64,000 nucleotides of DNA. Source: an uncultured Paraprevotella sp. (GTDB taxonomy: Bacteria; Bacteroidota; Bacteroidia; Bacteroidales; Bacteroidaceae). Location of the stretch: NCBI GenBank assembly GCA_900546665.1, contig URDY01000001.1, positions 124,001 to 188,000 on the forward strand, read 5' to 3'. The notes beneath the pieces are model-generated. The model searched no databases. It was not told where the DNA came from and was given only the letters and a program-made list of their open reading frames with translations. The first letter of the stretch is position 1. Every line of letters starts with the position of its first letter. Positions 18,221-64,000 of this stretch are shown here, piece by piece. Both the position numbers and the translations under genes were made by a program.

Positions 18221-20842
18221 ATGAAAAAAACAGTTTTACATCATTTTTTTGCCATCTTGTCATTGGTTCTGCTGATACAGCCGGTTTTCGCACAGCAACG
18301 AAGACCCATCAGCTCAGAATCTCCATTATGGCTGATCCATATTGACGTATGGAATCAGGCAGACCCACAGAAAATCATTGATCTGATACCCGAAGAGATC
18401 AAACCGTATGTCTGTCTGAACCTATCCCTTTCATGCTCGTATGACACCGACCGGGATGTTTACAAGATGCCTCAGAATGCCATCAGGACCTATAAATCAT
18501 GGGCTTCCGTATGTCAGGCCAATAAGATGTGGTTTACCTGTCAGCCAGCCAGTGGAGGACATACCCATCTCATGGACGATGATCTTGAAATATTCGAATA
18601 CTTCTACAAACGGTATCCCAACTTCCTGGGCTGGAACTATGCAGAACAGTTCTGGGGTTTCAACGAACCGGGAGATGAAAGTTCGAGCACTATCGAAGAG
18701 CGTCTGGAACTGTTTGCCAAACTGGTACCAATGGCCCACAAATACGGTGGCTTCCTGACCATCAGTTTCTGCGGCAACATCTGGTCTCACGACCTTAACT
18801 CCATAGGTATGATGAAACAGAACAAGGAACTCTACGAGGCCTGTCAGAAATACCCTGACGCCATTCTCTGGCTTTACAAGTATACCACAGCCAGCTGTTT
18901 CTACAACAACGAAAGTGTCACGTTCTCGCCGTTCGTATCCGGCCTGTCCAATTATTATGGTGTCCGCTACGACAATTGCGGATGGAACGGTGCCTTGTCG
19001 GACCTTTTCGGAGAAAACAATGGAAAAACCTATCCCGTATCTGCCGGAATAGGTACCGTCATGGAACAGACCTGCGTAAACGGAGGAGCTGTATGGGACG
19101 GTCCTGAGCTGATCTGGACAGAAGACTTCCAAAACCTCAGCAATACGGTTGTAGACGGATACACACGCAGAAACTGGGGCACATTCCCGGGATTCCGCAA
19201 TGCCTGGCTGGACATGTTCCGGAAAATCATCGACGGAACCATGTATATCCCATCCCGCAAGGAGGTTGTGGAGAATACCAAGATCATCATCATCAACGAT
19301 ATAACAACAGGTTCAAGCGAAGAAAGAAATGCATCATGGGCCGAACTCTATGACGGACTTTACAAACAGACCGACCCATTCAATAACAATAACGGTTACT
19401 GGATGGACAATCACTGTTATTTCAAGAAAACCGGCCGTTACCGTACCATACCTGTCACCATCGGACTAAATGATGAATTAGCTAAAAGTATTCCGGTACA
19501 GATCAAAAAATCGGCCTACAAAAGAGAATGGCCTATCCTCAACAAAAAAATCGGTGAATTCAACGCCCAATACCCGGAAATCAGCAAGGGTGATCTGTTC
19601 GTTTCCAGATTCAAGAACCAGCTGGTCACTTATACTCCGTATACTTACCTGAACAGCAAAACCACAGCTTCTGCCATTGTCCCTTTGGAATACAACACCT
19701 GCGACAGCATTAACCTCACATGGGGTAAACTCAGCAGCGGTATCGTTAGAGAATACGCAGATCATATCGACTTCTATCTGAACAATTACCGTACGGATAC
19801 CACGGACATGGTACTCGACAAGATCGTCGTGTACGGAGCAACCACAGAACCTACCTTCCAGCTGACAGACCGCGTGGAAGCCGTATCAAAAACATCTGCG
19901 GAATGGGATGCCGAAACCAAACAATATACCCTTAACGTATGGCATATGGGACCTGTAGATGTAACCGTCAACTGTTCAGGAACCGCCACAGAACGGCGTA
20001 CAGACTTGGCAGCCAGCTCACCGCTGCAACTCCCCAAACAGCCGGATGACTATTATGGAGAGATCATCATCGAGGCCGAGGATATGGATTACAAGAATAT
20101 CAAAAAATGTGTAGTTGATCCTTACTACAGCTATCCTGATGTATTCGGACATGCCGGCAACGGCTTCATGGATATGGGCAATGACAAGAACGGTACGCTC
20201 AGACATAACCTGAATATTGAAAACGCAACTGACTATAACGTCACAGTCAGATACACCTCCCCTGAAAATGCCGGATTCATCGCCATAGCCGTCAACAGTA
20301 CGCGAAGAATGGTAAAATGTGAAAAGACTGAAAAAAACGAATGGAAAAAACTCAGTCTGAAATTTACAATGAAAGAGGGCGAAAACAAAACAACCATCTA
20401 TAATCCCAACGGCCTTGACATCTATATCGATAATGTCACTTACACGCCGACGGACATACCTGAAGAAAAATTCCTTATCACCATCAGAGAAGCAGAAAAC
20501 GGAAAAGCTATCGCCAGCGCCGATTCAGCTGCTGAAGGAGAACTCGTCACCGTTAACCCCGTCCCCAACGCAGGATATGAATTTGCAGGATGGAACATCA
20601 TACATGGCAATATCAATATGAGTGATGACAACACCTTCACCATGCCAGATGACATCGTAACTCTACAGCCGATATTCGCAGTATCCACTGCCATCAACAC
20701 ACCGACCGTATCAGATGTCTTGCCCGGAACTCAATGTAAGGAAATCTATGACATCAACGGAATCAAAAGAAATGATCTTGGCAAAGGACTCAATATCATC
20801 AAAACCGCCAATGGAAGTATACGCAAAATTTATATCAAGTAA
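18221..20842 (+). CDS. Secreted glycoside hydrolase family 98 with carbohydrate-binding module
   Basis: 873 residues. Signal peptide to about PVFAQ; GH98 catalytic barrel at about 28-340, including the diagnostic NYAEQFWGF with the likely acid E142, followed by the family's beta-rich C-terminal domain to about 610. Residues about 615-742 resemble a CBM6/CBM35 sandwich (IIIEAEDMDY, then GFMDMGND). About 745-822 resemble an InlB B-type repeat (GYEFAGWNI). The last 45 residues (YDINGIKRN ... IKTANGSIRKIYIK) look like a type IX secretion C-terminal domain. GH98 contains blood-group endo-galactosidases and, in gut Bacteroides, endo-xylanases. The GH43 and GH51 neighbours favour xylan as substrate, by inference. 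Confidence 0.8.
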   Translation: MKKTVLHHFFAILSLVLLIQPVFAQQRRPISSESPLWLIHIDVWNQADPQKIIDLIPEEIKPYVCLNLSLSCSYDTDRDVYKMPQNAIRTYKSWASVCQANKMWFTCQPASGGHTHLMDDDLEIFEYFYKRYPNFLGWNYAEQFWGFNEPGDESSSTIEERLELFAKLVPMAHKYGGFLTISFCGNIWSHDLNSIGMMKQNKELYEACQKYPDAILWLYKYTTASCFYNNESVTFSPFVSGLSNYYGVRYDNCGWNGALSDLFGENNGKTYPVSAGIGTVMEQTCVNGGAVWDGPELIWTEDFQNLSNTVVDGYTRRNWGTFPGFRNAWLDMFRKIIDGTMYIPSRKEVVENTKIIIINDITTGSSEERNASWAELYDGLYKQTDPFNNNNGYWMDNHCYFKKTGRYRTIPVTIGLNDELAKSIPVQIKKSAYKREWPILNKKIGEFNAQYPEISKGDLFVSRFKNQLVTYTPYTYLNSKTTASAIVPLEYNTCDSINLTWGKLSSGIVREYADHIDFYLNNYRTDTTDMVLDKIVVYGATTEPTFQLTDRVEAVSKTSAEWDAETKQYTLNVWHMGPVDVTVNCSGTATERRTDLAASSPLQLPKQPDDYYGEIIIEAEDMDYKNIKKCVVDPYYSYPDVFGHAGNGFMDMGNDKNGTLRHNLNIENATDYNVTVRYTSPENAGFIAIAVNSTRRMVKCEKTEKNEWKKLSLKFTMKEGENKTTIYNPNGLDIYIDNVTYTPTDIPEEKFLITIREAENGKAIASADSAAEGELVTVNPVPNAGYEFAGWNIIHGNINMSDDNTFTMPDDIVTLQPIFAVSTAINTPTVSDVLPGTQCKEIYDINGIKRNDLGKGLNIIKTANGSIRKIYIK

Positions 20843-20877
20843 AGACTGAAACTAATATACCTTCCAATCTTTTTTAG

Positions 20878-20929
20878 TTCCGACCTCTGTCTGTACGACT
20901 ACCCATACAGCAGCGGTCGGAATTTTTTT
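20878..20929 (+). terminator. Terminator after GH98 gene
   Basis: TTCCGACC (20878-20885) pairs with GGTCGGAA (20915-20922), with an inner CTGTA/TACAG stem (20891-20895 with 20906-20910), followed by seven T residues. It ends the GH43-GH98 unit and separates it from the GH51-GH43 gene. Confidence 0.8.
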
Positions 20930-21053
20930 ATGCAGCAAATCTTATATTCCGGGAAGTTCTCTATCTGCATAAGAAAACATCAACAATCAAAAAAACGGTC
21001 AAACAGAATTATACCATAAAACAGTTTTCTTTCCTACATATTCTTTATACAAA

Positions 21054-21542
21054 AAACTCCTTCACCTCTTCACCTTCCTTTATTTATGCCGGACAAAAAG
21101 TGAACCGGCTCCTTCACCACCCCTTCACCATCTCCTTCAACCTTTATTTTGTCCTATATAAATCCCGATTTCCTTGTATTGAAAATATAAGACATTTTCA
21201 AAAAAGTAAAGCTTACTTTTTAAAAAGTAAACCTTACTTTTTTGAAAGTAAGCTTTGATTTTTCATAAGTAAGCCGAAGTATTAATCCAAAAATATTCTT
21301 TTTTGTTGACAGATTGAAAAATTTGGAAAAAACAGGAACAAAAGAAGGATGAAGCACACATATTCATCTATAACATACTGATTACAAATACATTAAAAAC
21401 AGAAGTGAAGAGGTGAAGTATTTTATAGGGTTTTCTTTCTTGGGAGAGATGTTTTTATCCTCTGTTCATAGTTCCGGGATCACCGAATCTGCACAATCTT
21501 CTCCCTTTGTAAAAAACCATTTAAGGGAAAAACATAGGGACC
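21054..21542. repeat. Non-coding repeat element, copy A
   Basis: This 490-base element recurs at 62967-63463. It has near-terminal inverted repeats, CTTCACCTCTTCAC at 21060-21073 and its exact reverse complement GTGAAGAGGTGAAG at 21405-21418. A central core at about 21191-21275 is built from AAGTAA and TTACTT units in alternating orientation. A conserved tail beyond the right repeat ends in AAAAACATAGGGACC (from about 21529). The core and repeats are conserved between copies while the intervening bases have drifted. No ORF of convincing quality lies inside. It fills most of the 986-base gap between two CAZyme genes. It could be a MITE-like element or a structured regulatory or recombination element. 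Confidence 0.7.
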
Positions 21543-21633
21543 CAACCCAATATGTCTCAAACCGAATAAAAGGAATAATTGGCATTTTAACAATTATTTC
21601 ATATCAATGATACAAACAATTGGCTTATAATTT

Positions 21634-21664
21634 TTTGGATAATTAAAAGATATTCATACCTTTG
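21634..21664 (+). promoter_or_regulatory. Promoter of the GH51-GH43 gene
   Basis: A textbook Bacteroidetes promoter: TTTG at 21634-21637, a 19-base spacer and TACCTTTG at 21657-21664. It implies a leader of about 160 bases before ATG 21829. Confidence 0.8.
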
Positions 21665-21828
21665 CGTGTCAGCACAGAAATAAGTGCAAATATTACGCTT
21701 TAAACAATACTTGAAAAATAAGATAAAAAAAAGTCAACATCACTAATCTGTGAAAATAAAAGGAACAAAACATTTTCAACCTAACATTATAAAAACATAA
21801 CGGAATTTCCAAAAAACATCCAGTTATC

Positions 21829-24800
21829 ATGAAAACACATCTACTGAAAGCGATCTGTGGCAGTCTGTTAGGATGTGCCATAAGCATGACTACTTATGCC
21901 AAGACCATTGAGATGCAAATCAACGCATCACGCACCACAAACGCCATCGGAAGCAGACACTATGGCTTGTTTTTCGAAGAAATCAATCATGCCGGCGACG
22001 GAGGCTTATACGCCGAACTGATTCAAAACCGTTCGTTCGAGGACAATGTTTATAATCCCGACAAATGGTGGACTGTAGGTTCCGCCAACATGTCCCTGAT
22101 TTCTGAAGGACTTCTTAACGATGTTCAGTCAAAAGCACTTAGAGTCAAATTCAATGCAAATGGGGACGGTATCAAGAACGAAGGTTTCTGGGGTATCAAC
22201 GCTGTCAAGGACAGAACATACACATGCTCATTCTGGGTTAAGTCAAACACTTGGAACGGCACTCTTACCGCTGCTATATGTAATGAAAACGGTACCCGGC
22301 TAGGCGAAACCGCAATTACTGTTTCCGCTTCAACAGAATGGAAAAAATATACTGCCACCATTACATGCAATGGCGACGATCCGAAAGCATGGTTCTTCCT
22401 GACAGCCGACAAAGCTGGCTCTCTGGATATTGATATGGTCAGCCTCTTCCCTCCTACATTCAAGGATCGTCCTAACGGATGTCGTCCGGATCTGGCACAA
22501 CTGCTTTACGATATGAAACCGGCCTTTGTCAGATTCCCCGGAGGATGCTTTGTAGAAGGAGCTTGGGCAGACGGACAGACCAACCGCTTCGAATGGAAAA
22601 AAACAATAGGACCGATAGAAGAACGTCCCGGACACCGTAACGTCAACTGGAACTATCGCGTTTCAGACGGTATGGGATTCCACGAAATGTTACAACTGAC
22701 AGAAGATCTCGGTGCAGAGCCGTTATTCGTTGTCAACATGGGTATGGGACATGGATGGTGCGAACCCTATACTGAAATAGACGAATACATTCAGGAAGCA
22801 CTTGATGCCATTGAATATTGCAACGGAGACGTGAATACCAAATGGGGAGCACTGCGAGCTGCCAACGGTCATCCCGAACCGTTCAACCTGAACCTGATTG
22901 AAATCGGCAACGAAAATTACAATTTCTCGTCACAGAACAACAACGACCAGAGTGACCATTATGCCGAACGATACATACAGTTCTATAATGCCATCAAGGA
23001 ACGTTACCCGGAAATGACCATCATAGGTAACGTAGAAGCATGGGGTACAGACAGTCCTTCATGGAGAAACCCACATCCGGTGGATGCCGTCGACGAACAT
23101 TATTACCGTTCACCCGACTGGTTCACCAGCCAATACAACAAATATGACAGCTACAGCCGCTCTTCTCATAAAATATATGTCGGCGAATATGCAGTCACAC
23201 AAAATTTCGGCGATTGCGGCAATCTGGATGCTGCTCTCGGCGAAGCAGTGTTCATGCTGGGTATGGAACGCAATGCCGATGTCTGCGTCATGAACAGCTA
23301 TGCTCCTATTTTTGTCAATGAAAACGACCAGAAGTGGAGACCGGACATGATCCGTTTCAACAGCGAAATTTCATACGGAACGCCTTCTTACTATGTTCAG
23401 AAACTGATGCCTAACAACATTGGTACTCATAATCTGAGCTATACGGAAAAAAATGTTTTCTACGCTGAAGATGGCGGACAGATCGGTATGAGCACATGGG
23501 CTACAACAGCGCAGTTTGACAATGTCCGTCTGACTGACGAAAACGGACAGGTCATCTTCTCTGATGATTTCCAGAATAGCGCCAACAGTAAATGGATCAT
23601 GCCTCAAAAGGGCGCATGGAACATCAACAATGGCGTGTTGGAACAAACCAATCCTTCAACCGAAGGTTCCATCTGTCACCTTGACATAGACGGCATGTCA
23701 TCATACACTTTCGAAGCAGATGCAACCAAACTATCAGGAGCTGAAGGTTTTCTTATCGTATTCAATTATAAAGATGACCAGAACTATGCCTGGTGGAACT
23801 TAGGTGGATGGGGCAATACCAAACATGGTGTAGAAATATGCCGTAACGGAAACAAAACAACCGTAACAAATACAAACGGCAGCATTGAAACCGGACGAAC
23901 TTACAGAGTAAAGATTCAGGTAAAGGGCAACCAGGTAACCTGCTATCTTGACGATACAGTTATCCATCAGTTCACTATCAATCAGGACAGAAAGATCTAC
24001 ACAGCTGTCAATATTGACCAGAATGACAATCAGATGTATGTCAAAATTGTCAATACAAAAGGACAGGCTCAAACTGTAAGAGTCAATGTAGACAATGCTA
24101 CTGTAGAAGACGGAACAGTCATCCAACTGACAGCTGCCAGCAACAAAGAGGAAAACAATGTCAATAACCCGTACAATGTTACCCCGAAAGAGCAGGCAGT
24201 CACTACCGATGCAGAAGGACTGACTTACGAAGTTCCCGCTTACTCTCTTAATATCATAAAACTTAAAGTCAGCGATATCCAGGAAGACAATACACCCGAT
24301 CCAGAACTTCCCGATCCCGTTGTAGCTTACACGTTCGAAAACGGACAACCTGCAGATGACAAAAACCAGTATGAAGGCAGTCTGACCGGAAGTGCAGACA
24401 TCATAGCCATGAATGACGGCAACAAGGTCCTCTACACCGGAAACGGTGATAATGGCGGATGGATGGACCTGGGATCTGATATGGCCAAACAAATCCTGTC
24501 ACAACTGACCGGCGACTTTACCATTACGGCAGATATCATGTTTCCCGGAATAGGTTCACTCGAAAAATATTGCTGGGCACTGGCAATGGCCAACGGTACA
24601 GACGAATACCTGGGTCTTGTCAATACAAACAATAATACTGACTGGTACTTCACCATGAAGGACAAAGAAAGCGGCAACGAATATGCCCGTTCCAAAAGCG
24701 GTATCTCTTACGGAAAATGGCACACCTTGACTTTCGTCATGGAAGGAAACAAAGGTTCATTCTATCTGGACGGATACAAATTGTCTGAAAGTGAATTCAG

Positions 24801-27350: not shown

Positions 27351-27364
27351 CATCCGAAAATAAA

Positions 27365-27445
27365 TGTGGATAGATTTGGGCGGCTTGCAACCACAGAAAA
27401 AAATGCTAAAATTTCAGTTTCTACAACTACGCATTCCTTCCCAAT
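27365..27445 (+). ncRNA. SAM-II-type riboswitch in the metK leader
   Basis: Stem TGTGG (27365-27369) pairs with CCACA (27391-27395) around a loop containing GATTTGGGCGGCTTGCAA, followed by an A-rich joint and TGCTAAAA (27404-27411). This order matches the SAM-II fold: P1, then GAUUU-x-CGGCUUGCA in the loop, then GCUAAA beyond P1. The pseudoknot partner is less clear; TTGGG (27376-27380) could pair with CCCAA (27440-27444). SAM-II elements control methionine and SAM genes in alphaproteobacteria and Bacteroidetes, and the gene here makes SAM, so feedback repression is the natural reading. The 3' boundary is uncertain. Confidence 0.65.
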
Positions 27446-27489: not shown

Positions 27490-28776
27490 ATGGGTTACTT
27501 ATTTACTTCAGAATCAGTATCAGAAGGTCATCCTGACAAAGTTGCGGACCAGATTTCGGACGCCGTACTGGATGAATTGTTGGCTTTTGACAAAGACTCA
27601 AAAGTAGCATGTGAGACAATGGTTACAACCGGACAGGTAATCTTGGCCGGTGAAGTGAAATCATCAGCTTATGTTGATCTTCAGGAAATAGCCAGACGTA
27701 CAATCAAACGGATCGGATATACCAAAGCCGAATATAAATTCGAATCAGAAAGCTGCGGTGTACTGTCGGCTATCCATGAGCAAAGCGCTGACATTAACCG
27801 TGGTGTAGAACGCGAAGATCCGATGAACCAAGGCGCTGGCGACCAGGGTATGATGTTCGGTTATGCTACCAACGAAACGGAAAACTATATGCCGCTTCCT
27901 TTGGACTTGTCTCACAAGATCCTTCAGGTGTTGGCAGAAATACGCCGCGAAGGCAAAGAAATGACTTATCTTCGTCCCGACTCAAAAAGCCAGGTCACAA
28001 TTGAATATAACGATGAAGGCAAACCAGTCCGCGTAGATACCATTGTCGTTTCAACCCAGCACGATGACTTCATCAAACCAATTGACGGCAATCAGGAAAA
28101 AGCAGACATGCAGATGCTGGATATCATCCGCAAAGATGTCATCAATATCCTTATGCCTCGCGTCATAGCCGAAATCCATGCCCCCGAAATCCTGGCACTG
28201 TTCGACGACCATATCACTTACCATGTCAATCCGACCGGTAAATTTGTTATTGGCGGTCCTCATGGAGATACTGGTCTGACAGGACGTAAAATCATCGTAG
28301 ATACATACGGTGGCAAGGGCGCACACGGAGGAGGTGCATTCTCAGGAAAAGATCCTTCAAAAGTAGACCGTTCGGCAGCTTACGCAGCCCGTCATATTGC
28401 CAAGAACATGGTAGCAGCCGGTGTAGCGGACGAAATGTTGGTTCAAATCAGCTATGCCATCGGTGTAGCAAAGCCTGTCAATATATATGTCAACACTTAT
28501 GGCAAGAGCAAAGTCAACATGTCGGACGGCGAAATTGCCCAGAAAATTTCCGAACTGTTTGACCTTCGCCCCAAAGCTATCGAAGACCGGCTGAAACTGC
28601 GTAATCCGATATATGAGGAAACTGCCGCATATGGTCACATGGGTCGCCAGCCACGTAAAGTCATCAAGGTTTTCCACAGCAGATATATGCCTTCCAAAAC
28701 CATGGAGGTAGAACTGTTCACCTGGGAAAAATTAGACTATATAGACAAAATAAAAGAAGCTTTCGGATTAAAATAA
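27490..28776 (+). CDS. metK: S-adenosylmethionine synthase
   Basis: 428 residues, full length for a bacterial MetK. It makes SAM from methionine and ATP in the cytoplasm. [17 protein letters not shown] at the N-terminus, [12 protein letters not shown] in the middle and [16 protein letters not shown] near the tripolyphosphate site are the family signatures. The gene sits behind a probable SAM-II riboswitch and is followed after five bases by a LOG-family gene, so the leader may control the following genes too. Confidence 0.97.
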
Positions 28777-61160: not shown

Positions 61161-62708
61161 TTAACCTTCCACCAGCCACCCTTCTATGCCTCTGGTCTCT
61201 CTGCTGAAGTTCACACCTATCTTATACAGTTTACGCGGATCGGAAGCAAAAGCCCGGGCATAGTGCCTGTCATTTATCTGCTGCAAGGCATCCTCGGCAC
61301 TGCCGTCCAACTTGAACTCCATCACGTAAATGTACTTGTCCGTTTTCACCAACAGGTCTATGCGGCCATGGGAAGTATGGTATTCGGCCTGAGTATAGAA
61401 ACCTAACAGCTTGAACACGATGAAAAGCACGTTCTGATAGTGCAGTTCAAGGTCACGCGCCAACTCATAGGGACTGTCTGCAAAGAAACTTTGCAGGCGT
61501 CTCAGGAAACCATCCGCATCACCCTGACGGACATCCTTGACGAAATTCATGATCTCGAAGGAAGGATTGCCTGTTTCAAGATGGGCATAGCAGGGCAACA
61601 GGAAACGGGTAAAACCTTCTTCCACTTCCCGGTTGGGAAAACCCAGATAATAAACCTGGAACTCACTGTCGTACCCCTTGATGGTCAGGTAACCGCTCTG
61701 GTAAAGGATAGGTACAGGGTTGGTGTTCATGTGGTCTATACCGCCCAACGAATCAACCGAGGCCATCTCTTTGGCCAGCCGCTGCAAGTCGTACCCGCTA
61801 TGTTGGAGCAACTTCACCAGAAACGTCGGAGTACCGGTCTCGAACCAGTAACTTCCGAACTTCATTTCTGCAAACGTATTCAACAGGCTGAACGGGTTGT
61901 AAATATCATCGCCGTCTTTCACAAAATGATAGCCGTCATACCTCTCTTTCAGCGCGGTTTTGGTTTCCTTTTCTCCCATCCCGTTTCTTTGCCCAAGCTC
62001 CAGGATGTCTTCTCTGAAATCCCTATAAAGTTCTTCCTCGGTTATCCCGCAGATATTGGCAAACCGGTCGGACAGGGAAATATCCATCAGATTGTTCAAG
62101 TCGCTAAACACGCTGACCTTGCTGAATTTGGTCACACCGGTTAACAGGGCAAACTTGATGTAACTGTCACAGCTCTTCATGACCCCGTAGAAGGCTTTCA
62201 GCGTATTGCGATAGTCTGCCAGCAGTTCCTCATTGCCAATGGCCTGAAGCATGGGCTTGTCATACTCATCAATAAGGATAACTACATTGCGGCCGGTCAC
62301 CGTACTGATTTTTTCTATGATATAAGAAAAACGCTCTTCAGGCGACCGGTCGTTCTTCTCGTCACCATAAACAGCCTCCCATTTTTCAAGATGCTGGTTC
62401 AGTATTTCATCAAGCGAAGAATGATTTTCATATTTTTTAGTATTAAGATCCACATGCAGGACCGGATACTCCGCCCATTCGTCCTCCAACCTTTCCATGG
62501 CCAGTCCTCCGAAAAGCTCTTTCTTACCTTGGAAATAAGCTTCCAAGGTAGAAACCAACAAACTTTTCCCGAACCGGCGGGGACGGCTCAGGAAATAATA
62601 TTTGCCACTCTCCACCAGCCTGTGGATCAAGGCCGTCTTGTCCACATAGACGTAATTCCCCTTACGGAGTTCCTCAAAACTTTGTATGCCTACCGGGTAT
62701 TTTCTCAT
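61161..62708 (-). CDS. AAA-ATPase-like / PD-(D/E)XK nuclease domain protein
   Basis: 515 residues. The N-terminal AAA-ATPase_like domain (PF09820) shows KYPVGIQSFEELRKGNYVYV, the Walker A SRPRRFGKSLLV with K48, and Walker B VVILIDEYDKPML. The C-terminal PD-(D/E)XK region (PF08011) has D451 in GRIDLL and E464-x-K466 in VMEFKL. These genes occur in many copies in Bacteroidetes genomes; their function is unknown, with possible mobile or defence links. It carries its own TATATTTG promoter, and a truncated sibling lies just downstream. Confidence 0.9.
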   Translation of the reverse strand: MRKYPVGIQSFEELRKGNYVYVDKTALIHRLVESGKYYFLSRPRRFGKSLLVSTLEAYFQGKKELFGGLAMERLEDEWAEYPVLHVDLNTKKYENHSSLDEILNQHLEKWEAVYGDEKNDRSPEERFSYIIEKISTVTGRNVVILIDEYDKPMLQAIGNEELLADYRNTLKAFYGVMKSCDSYIKFALLTGVTKFSKVSVFSDLNNLMDISLSDRFANICGITEEELYRDFREDILELGQRNGMGEKETKTALKERYDGYHFVKDGDDIYNPFSLLNTFAEMKFGSYWFETGTPTFLVKLLQHSGYDLQRLAKEMASVDSLGGIDHMNTNPVPILYQSGYLTIKGYDSEFQVYYLGFPNREVEEGFTRFLLPCYAHLETGNPSFEIMNFVKDVRQGDADGFLRRLQSFFADSPYELARDLELHYQNVLFIVFKLLGFYTQAEYHTSHGRIDLLVKTDKYIYVMEFKLDGSAEDALQQINDRHYARAFASDPRKLYKIGVNFSRETRGIEGWLVEG

Positions 62709-62734
62709 TTATATAATATAAAAACCAGACAGTA

Positions 62735-62742
62735 CAAATATA
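62735..62742 (-). promoter_or_regulatory. Promoter of the AAA-ATPase/PD-(D/E)XK gene
   Basis: Minus-strand TATATTTG, exact -7 box, 27 bases before the start. The same box and flanks recur at 61043-61050 before the decayed copy. Confidence 0.65.
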
Positions 62743-62966
62743 CACAAAGCCAGACATATTGACAAATAAAACTGTCATTTTCGGAATAAGCCACTATGAT
62801 CTTAGTCTTCTGCTAAATACCCGAGGATTTTATTTAGGCAAGTGAACCCACTTCTTCCATTTTCTCCCCAAACTAAACCTTTTCATAATCCGATTTTTTT
62901 ATCTGTCATACAAGAAGACTGCTATTCATTCACCCTCTTGATAGCTCCCCTTACTGTTTCTTGCCA

Positions 62967-63463
62967 AAACCCCTTCACCTCTTCACTTCCCTTTATTGAT
63001 AAGGGATACGGCGTGACAGAGATCCTTCACCACTCCTTCACCACCCCTTCATTTCTGTATCCGACAGACTTTTTAACTTTTCAACAACCAATTTACATAA
63101 ATCAAAATTCAGGACATTTTTAAAAAAGTAAAGCTTACTTTAAAAAAAGTAAACCTTACTTTTCCGAAAGTAAGCCTTACTTTTTCCCAAGTAAGCCAGG
63201 CTTCGAAAGGGTTAAACTGTTATTTTTATTTACAAATTAAGATTTTAGGAACACAGGATGACATAAGGATGGTGAAGGATGCTTGTTCACCTATAACAAA
63301 TTAACAATCAAACTATTACAATACGAAATGAAGAGGTGAGGCATTTTTATGGGATTGGCCTCCTTGGGAAAGAGCAAAACCACCCCATACCTGATCCGGA
63401 AACCCCGTTCCCTGCCTGCTTTTCTCCTACGAAAAATCACACTCAAGAAAAACATAGGGACCA
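62967..63463. repeat. Non-coding repeat element, copy B
   Basis: Homologous to 21054-21542. Left repeat CTTCACCTCTTCAC at 62973-62986 and a right repeat ATGAAGAGGTGAGG at 63328-63341 (near-complement). A second nested pair, ATCCTTCACCA (63022-63032) and TGGTGAAGGAT (63270-63280), is perfectly complementary. The core at 63122-63197 has AAGTAA/TTACTT units in alternating orientation, more regular than in copy A. The tail ends in AAAAACATAGGGACC. Nested complementarity would let the whole element fold into one long imperfect hairpin. Confidence 0.7.
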
Positions 63464-63552
63464 AAAATACTTGAAAACGACAAAAAAGAACCATAAAAGA
63501 CGACAGATGACCACAAACGACAAAAATAGCCTATCCTCTTCCGGCCATGTCG

Positions 63553-63560
63553 TATCTTTG
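63553..63560 (+). promoter_or_regulatory. Promoter -7 box before the right-edge gene
   Basis: TATCTTTG, exact TAnnTTTG, 17 bases before ATG 63578. No good -33 box is seen. Confidence 0.6.
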
Positions 63561-63577
63561 TATAAAAACAGATAAAG

Positions 63578-64000
63578 ATGAAAGAACTCAAACAGGTTAT
63601 CAGACAGGCAGTCAGCCGTTGGATAGAAAGAAGAAAGGCAAAAGGCGATAATGAAACGATGGAAAAAACAGCAGTTTCTACCCCCGAAACAAACGATACG
63701 GCCTGTTGCCCTACATTTACGGTTTCTACGGACAAACAGCTGGAAATCAAACGGACAGAAAAACAATATCTCCAGTACGTCCTTGAACTTTTACGGATAT
63801 TCTTCCTAGAATATACCGTGGCAGACAATACCATTACACAGGAAACTTTCAGAATCCCATGCAAATCCACAGATAAGAATATACTTTCAATAATCCAGCC
63901 AATTTTTCAACAGGGTTATTTTCTCCCTGCTTACATATATCTCACCTTGAAATTCAGGAAATATATAAATACGGTACTTATTATTAAAATAAGGCTCCAG
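63578..64000 (+). CDS. Uncharacterised protein, N-terminal part (cut by window edge)
   Basis: 141 codons from ATG 63578 stay open to the window edge. The protein begins MKELKQVIRQAVSRWIERRK, a basic amphipathic helix, then a threonine-rich linker (EKTAVSTPETNDTACCPTF), then a possible helical domain (EKQYLQYVLELLRIFFLEY) and hydrophobic LPAYIYLTLKFRKYI. I do not recognise a family. An exact -7 box upstream supports expression. It lies directly after repeat copy B. Confidence 0.5.
   Translation, partial: MKELKQVIRQAVSRWIERRKAKGDNETMEKTAVSTPETNDTACCPTFTVSTDKQLEIKRTEKQYLQYVLELLRIFFLEYTVADNTITQETFRIPCKSTDKNILSIIQPIFQQGYFLPAYIYLTLKFRKYINTVLIIKIRLQ

Follow-up and report, generated by a model that had tools for sequence, protein, structure and literature searches.

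The window, by which we mean the whole 64,000-nucleotide stretch of DNA analyzed here, contains two copies of a non-coding element. Copy A (21054-21545) is flanked by two plus-strand genes, and copy B (62966-63465) has a minus-strand gene on one side and, on the other, a plus-strand frame that begins at about 63578 and runs off the window. BLAST aligned the two copies at 69% identity over 414 bases (E 2e-38), which bore out the statement in an earlier note on this DNA that the same order of blocks recurs 42 kb away. In that order, the left end module is followed by additional CCTTCACC boxes spaced by about 11 bp (a lag of 11 was enriched in both copies), and then by a palindrome core, an inverted right end and a short tail (Table 1). 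At gathering thresholds, an Rfam scan of the window returned only a SAM-II riboswitch and a tRNA; the riboswitch (27360-27419, 58.2 bits) lies ahead of metK at 27490 and is ordinary.

Comparison of the copies by segment indicated that the ends and core were conserved (left end 75%, core 87%, right end 77%, tail 76% identical) and that the filler between them had drifted (left spacer 45%, right spacer 55%, stretch from right end to tail 42%), as the earlier note had described, with outer flanks only 34% and 40% identical. The exact reverse complementarity that it reported for CTTCACCTCTTCAC (21060-21073) and GTGAAGAGGTGAAG (21405-21418) was confirmed. The window contained one exact 14-nt inverted pair at a distance of 60-400 bp, and 30 random sequences had 0.17 such pairs on average and at most 1. 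This pair is weak evidence taken alone; the element is far from chance because the second copy aligns at the E value given above. Up to two mismatches allowed, AAAGTAARSYTTACTTT occurred six times in the window, each time inside one of the two cores, compared with 0.03 occurrences expected. The note had set a conserved ORF across the core against its own interpretation; the frame that is open across the core of copy B hits a TAA in copy A, and no core-spanning ORF open in both copies was found when both sequences were read.

To describe the ends we used R1, a sequence profile from 19 aligned end modules (16 from genome G682, one from locus L149 and two from the window). Copies A and B are both among these sequences, so their matches to R1 are partly by construction, and at E 0.01 the profile does not reach the right end of either copy.

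Table 1. Parts of the two copies of the element, in window positions.
Feature	Position	Strand	Evidence
Copy A left end module (CCTTCACC-TCTTCACC ... GTGA)	21059-21103	+	Profile R1 match 21060-21103, E 1.5e-7 (partly by construction)
Copy A inner boxes CCTTCACC, CCTTCACC, CCTTCAACC, at a spacing of about 11 bp	21111-21148	+	Sequence; lag 11
Copy A core, 21-bp-phased palindromes	21196-21277	.	Top lag 21, z 13.4
Copy A core units	21203-21219, 21224-21240, 21245-21261 (two mismatches), half unit from 21266	.	AAAGTAARSYTTACTTT pattern
Copy A right end, inverted box pair	21405-21424	-	Inverted repeat I3, 90% over 20 nt
Copy A tail AAAAACATAGGGACC, conserved	21527-21545	+	94.7% over 19 nt to copy B, E 0.05 (separate BLAST piece)
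Copy B left end module	62972-63016	+	Profile R1 match 62973-63016, E 4.7e-9 (partly by construction)
Copy B inner boxes	63024-63057	+	Sequence, A/B alignment
Copy B core	63118-63198	.	Top lag 21, z 26.3
Copy B core units	63125-63141, 63146-63162, 63167-63183, half unit from 63188	.	AAAGTAARSYTTACTTT pattern
Copy B right end, inverted box pair	63325-63348	-	Inverted repeat I3, 79% over 24 nt
Copy B tail, conserved	63447-63465	+	Alignment to copy A

The window core consists of 17-bp palindromes, AAAGTAARSYTTACTTT, at an exact 21-bp step, with three and a half units per copy. The earlier note had recognized a palindromic core; the loose alternation of AAGTAA and TTACTT units that it saw there is instead a series of tandem palindromes at this fixed step. 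A similar periodicity was found elsewhere. The top lag was 21, 22 or a multiple in 27 of 28 chosen regions, a count that is partly circular as some regions had been picked by a 21-bp pattern. A non-circular count came from 40 loci fetched by the end module alone, in 33 of which the strongest lag belonged to the 21/22-bp series with z>5, compared with 5 of 80 control stretches in the same loci (20 of the 80 had some lag with z>5). An inverted pair of modules 80-800 bp apart was present in 19 of these 40 loci, the other 21 being scored as having a single module, and 17 of the 19 had their strongest lag in the 21/22-bp series with z>5. In G682, 86 of 89 unit spacings were 22 bp. The arrays of eight of nine loci in genome G720 were also mostly at 22-bp spacing; the totals of that set are spoiled by a spurious chain at the ninth, L253, and no count was taken from it. 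A tandem repeat of about 66 bp, corresponding to three 22-bp steps, is located near an array from position 905 of L253.

Related elements were identified in several searches. Copy B matched six of 399 genomes of the Alloprevotella family, of which G682 alone was counted as real; the other five matches were rejected, by reading only, as coding sequence or, once, a terminator-like hairpin. The inverted ends of G682 match the left end of the window element at 83% over query positions 5-51 in both orientations, and its core palindrome is different. Searched with its own element, G682 produced 58 matches; 24 regions were taken and 22 had an array, accompanied by both end modules, one or none, and L130 was a module without an array. 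Within the genus of G682, R1 at E 0.01 matched 34 of 149 genomes, many as plus/minus pairs 200-600 bp apart, and had no match in the other 115, scans of more than 40 genomes being scored under stricter filters. These numbers, with many relatives elsewhere, support the view in the earlier note of a dispersed non-coding element, and the restriction to two copies in any genome that would have spoken against it was not what we found.

The genus of G682 is very probably Bacteroides, as supported by the L193 element of G690, a genome of the same genus. Among plasmid records, this element had matches in 12 from Bacteroides finegoldii TSDC17.2-1.1. The best of these was 95.6% identical along the entire element, with groES-groEL next to it and no annotated feature at the matching position; three unannotated phage records also matched. 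The record L242 (NZ_OY725899.1) is a plasmid of B. finegoldii TSDC17.2-1.1 by its label; it contains groEL-groES and resembles a contig from the chromosome.

None of the other genomes searched contained the element in the version seen in the window. R1 at E 0.001 found the end module in none of 20 genomes of the family nearest the window by tyrS, that family being the one with the best full-length tyrS match (71-72% DNA identity, with one partial match of 76%). A three-unit core pattern matched 2 of 251. A search of genome contigs for two palindromes 21 bp apart returned 35 stretches, five of them in Bacteroidales SUG481 and eight in Bacteroidetes palsa_967, and many of the remaining matches are probably due to chance. 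SUG481 (L016, L017, L023, L024, L033) and palsa_967 (L018-L020, L025, L040) have many dispersed 21-bp arrays of GTAAGCGTTAC or GTAAACCTTAC units, with 18 and 58 forward matches per genome at up to one mismatch, and these arrays are possible relatives of the element. A search around the cores of L017, L033, L024 and L057 detected no inverted repeats of the set length, and L007 had only weak long-range ones, so the SUG481 and Alloprevotella arrays are putative relatives of the element on the basis of spacing and core letters.

Among viral contigs, the core pattern matched six stretches that by reading were unlike the window element, and the tail pattern matched 16, none with the core motif nearby. 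Two viral contigs (L003, 13663-13694, and L004, 4786-4817) each have a pair of GTAAACCTTAC palindromes, at a spacing of 21 bp, in a stretch that looks non-coding and may be a phage operator or a relative. Copy A had no match among plasmid records, copy B had none among phage records, and one G682 and one G251 element had none among plasmid records.

Across these relatives, the letters of the core unit vary between lineages and the phase is constant. Units resembling GTCYYGYRRGAC occur in G682 and G720, AAAYGMARNYTKCRTTT in a finegoldii-type group (G690, G723, G564, G739, G715, G794, G788, and G729), CATTATAGC in G739 and G715, AACTGGAGTCGTCCGATCGG in G732, and CTGCGGGCYG in G576, on the other strand in G720 and in degenerate form in G251. 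As several genomes can hold one unit type and several types can occur in one genome, the link of unit type to lineage is loose. In finegoldii-type elements, reading of the sequences indicated directional boxes, AAACTTCYTTT, on both sides of the core; they are mirrored and keep about the same 22-bp step. The window unit has the frame AAA-GTA-AR-N-YT-TAC-TTT and the finegoldii type AAA-NNN-AR-N-YT-NNN-TTT, both on 21 bp, and this common frame and step suggest that the two units are homologous. The purine/pyrimidine pattern RTCYYRYRRGAY is kept by the 106 units of the 22 G682 arrays, in which transitions are free: a hand count gave 16 violations in 1272 positions and 354 transition variants. Because a unit with more than two departures from the pattern was not accepted, this count is biased against violations. 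Several elements (L181-L188 of G251; L123, L125, and L138 of G682) have another palindrome family, TTTTGATRTAYATCAAAA, immediately beyond them; in G251 its step is 22 bp. Based on its position just outside the end modules, the elements may be composites of several arrays.

Both neighboring genes were obtained with a simple ORF caller for 52 of 54 elements, of which 23 lay in convergent, 27 in tandem and 2 in divergent gaps, compared with 5, 23 and 7, respectively, of the other gene pairs in the same loci; this count leaves out L146, L189, L190, L196, L208, L211-L213, L216, L219, and L220. When six loci with a flank common to another were removed, 21 convergent, 23 tandem and 2 divergent placements remained (hand count). 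In the tandem gaps, the element was closer to the end of the upstream gene in 20 of 27 cases, with one tie (hand count). Copy B of the window, between divergently placed genes, is an exception to this location behind genes.

Comparison of neighbors also provided information on the history of the elements. Both neighbors were kept between two species each for L193/L198 and L194/L196, with flanks 92-98% identical. Only one was kept for L202/L191 (left 91%; right merely 58 bp alike), L203/L197, L197/L195, and L192/L199, and L210 has the left neighbor of L202 and L191, its right side having been cut at an arbitrary point. The possibility that six aligned elements represented one locus of six species was rejected by the same comparison: three have one common left neighbor, two have another, and one of these has the right neighbor of the sixth. 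Several elements are thus at synteny breaks, as would be expected if copies recombine, and the related copies with a single common neighbor suggest that element copies may mediate inversions or other rearrangements. The array at L141 was also present in G720, a sister species, where the same right-hand gene adjoins it and the left-hand gene is about 13 kb away. It was absent from the same gene end in all 12 of the other relatives read, which indicates that the array is dispensable there. In four orthologous array pairs, one of them badly aligned, 112 of 422 aligned positions differed (80 transitions, 32 transversions), compared with 161 of 827 (89 transitions, 72 transversions) in their ±150-bp flanks, which include coding DNA. 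As the orthologous arrays differ more than their flanks, the letters of the arrays are not strongly conserved.

Such dispersal could reflect a decayed, non-autonomous MITE with a passenger minisatellite, similar to BrickBuilt, in which the array would have no function of its own. The inverted ends and many copies are consistent with this, as are similar copies at unrelated places of one genome (in G564, L198 and L199 agree at 86% over 477 bp, and their flanks are unrelated; in G251, L181 and L184 are 84% alike) and the unit order kept in paralogues (window copies A and B; L198/L199). That the six aligned elements are not one locus also weighs slightly toward a MITE. Against it, the target-site duplications that the earlier note had proposed to look for were absent from 26 flank pairs (mean longest repeat 4.15 vs 4.12 when shuffled), although this test is weakened by rearranged copies, an uncertain outer boundary (the likeness extends outward in G251) and a few ends cut by the profile. 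In addition, the ORFs between the distant module pairs of L208 and L211 show no transposase by reading of the ORF lists, and a MITE leaves unexplained both the single phase across unlike units and the purine/pyrimidine constraint. We regard a MITE as possible, with a probability well short of even.

According to the sections of its description consulted, the BrickBuilt MITE of Porphyromonas gingivalis is intergenic and multi-copy, with 23-nt tandem repeats between two flanking segments; some copies are without one or both flanks, and whole units are gained or lost between strains (PMC4596501). The elements described here resemble it in their intergenic, multi-copy nature, in repeats near two helical turns between flanks and in unit gain and loss. 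On the same partial basis there are several differences: BrickBuilt has a distinct leader and tail, whereas the ends here are one module, inverted; a table places its ends beside an IS5-family end, and three of four testable copies have duplications, whereas none were found here; its host range is described as limited, whereas the present elements occupy part of a genus plus the window's genus with unlike units; and it has a 23-nt unit and GAGACC-type ends, whereas here the units are 21/22 bp and the ends CCTTCACC (PMC4596501).

The end module is about 44 nt long, with the consensus CCTTCACC...GCGGGTGA. Its pairing was analyzed in 32 unique modules (of 47 modules 44 nt long, 39 were in one register), and kinship among the modules inflates all the values that follow. 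The inner pairs 16-32, 17-31, and 19-29 were Watson-Crick above shuffled pairings (fractions 0.0006, 0.0012, and below 0.0002), pair 15-33 had a weak excess only (0.062), and 14-34 and 18-30 had none. Outer pairs 3-43 and 1-45 exceeded the shuffles, as did -3/49 (0.003), the alternative C-G pair at 3-43 coming from five G251 modules aligned out of register; the remaining outer pairs hardly varied or had no clear excess. Slid controls were below expectation at -2, -1, and +1 and above it at +2 (54 vs 45.1). The module, then, co-varies in part like a hairpin.

The core units gave a different result. In the G682 units, pairing at either dyad was never clearly above shuffle (lowest fractions 0.06-0.08, at two inter-unit pairs) and A.C mismatches were about as frequent as G.T, and 40 unique units of the finegoldii-type group, from a list in which four are off register by one base, had no pairing excess (lowest fraction 0.13). 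Compensatory changes, which the earlier note had also proposed as support, were therefore present at some pairs of the end module and absent from the core units of both groups. Three cores, taken as single strands, folded far better than shuffles (z -5.0 to -7.6). Because there was no pairing covariation, and any palindromic DNA folds well, we favor the core being recognized as a double helix by a protein over a role as RNA.

A transcribed RNA element, such as a terminator, a 3'-UTR stabilizer or a small RNA from the hairpins, would account for that folding, for the compensatory changes that the end module has at three of its inner pairs and for the location behind genes. The lack of covariation in the core units and the trivial folding of palindromic DNA argue against it. 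Moreover, no terminator-like site was found in 20800-21900 or 62650-63650, and no Rfam family reached threshold on the element in the window scan. We consider an RNA element improbable. A mutational process that makes 21/22-nt tandem duplications with an unselected product is just as hard to credit, if not slightly harder. It would fit the common step of unlike units, some within one genome, and one difference of exactly 21 nt, by which the array of L191 is shorter than those of L202 and L210, which have its left neighbor, but predicts neither palindromic units nor the near absence of purine/pyrimidine changes. Although hairpin-like modules in inverted pairs recall a REPIN moved by a RAYT (Y1 transposase), with the end modules as inverted REPs, this is very unlikely, as PF01797 was present in just 5 of 11 module-bearing genomes, none of seven RAYT loci had a module even at E 10, and inspection of four RAYT loci revealed long inverted repeats that differ in sequence from the modules in three of them and no more than a weak repeat in L223. 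The RAYT genes with inverted repeats of other sequence, L147 (G682), L221 (G251), and L222 (G794), apparently belong to REP/RAYT systems separate from the element.

Dispersed intergenic elements are well studied in enterobacteria. The BOX elements of pneumococci consist of central repeats, variable in number, and of two end parts that differ from each other; they are modular like the present elements, but their central parts are longer and without two-turn palindromes, and they belong to a different phylum. Plasmid iterons and partition-site arrays have repeats of about 19-22 bp on which one protein binds side by side; those are single replicon loci adjoining the protein gene, whereas the arrays here are dispersed over the genome. 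The nearest published kinds, as far as the consulted parts of both sources extend, are BrickBuilt and the REP/BIME elements (PMC3733652, PMC4596501). Like the elements here, REPs and BIMEs are described as intergenic palindromes, often in opposite-orientation pairs, mostly in convergent or same-direction gaps downstream of coding regions; REPs, however, are 20-40 bp with a GTAG or CGTC tag (PMC3733652), and here a module of about 44 nt, with neither tag at the ends of its consensus by reading, is joined to a 21/22-bp-phased array. In those same parts, neither REP/BIME nor BrickBuilt unites hairpin modules in inverted orientation with a two-turn array of palindromes and with units that are unlike under shared ends. 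Among the matches listed in open-access literature, titles and abstract starts contained no description of the element.

The elements are dispersed, non-coding, modular, phase-locked and mostly behind genes, with relatives in several Bacteroidaceae genomes, and in many copies hairpin-like end modules in inverted orientation enclose a palindrome core at two helical turns (21 or 22 bp). We tentatively interpret them, at close to an even chance, as REP/BIME-like mosaic non-coding intergenic elements that would carry a helically phased protein-binding array with a cooperative binder and a BIME-like role. The earlier note had named a protein-binding array, a structured RNA and a MITE as candidates; the array fits the core best because of the rigid 21/22-bp phase, the palindromic units and the absence of covariation, an RNA is unsupported for the core, with the end module partly compensatory, and a MITE is possible. 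In the protein-binding interpretation, each palindrome would be a putative dimer site, and all sites would face the same side of the helix. They would be bound by a cooperative, sequence-specific protein with a specificity that varies by lineage, which would allow the unit letters to change as the phase is held. With less confidence, we speculate that the bound array at gene 3' ends may act as a BIME-like insulator, roadblock or supercoil-handling platform between transcription units. The exact 21-nt difference of L191, the location behind genes and the elements that keep both neighbors between species are in line with the protein-binding interpretation. The location also fits neutral insertion tolerated only there, however, and further points against the interpretation are the dispensable array at L141, the letters that differ more in orthologous arrays than in their flanks, the loose link of unit type to lineage, the divergent setting of copy B, and the genomes of the genus and of the family nearest by tyrS that R1 did not match.

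A bolder proposal, which we consider doubtful, is that these elements form a dispersed address system in Bacteroides chromosomes, in which one-face arrays of dimer sites would be read by a protein family of drifting specificity, the ends and geometry being inherited and the code rewritten. If true, this would be an undescribed kind of chromosome-organizing or transcription-insulating element in a dominant gut genus. If the array binds a protein, this would point to a new nucleoid or insulator factor, for which the array is a ready bait sequence. With the geometry fixed and the letters changing, sister species would offer a way to test whether a DNA-binding protein and its sites co-evolve, and the copies at synteny breaks suggest a part in genome rearrangement.
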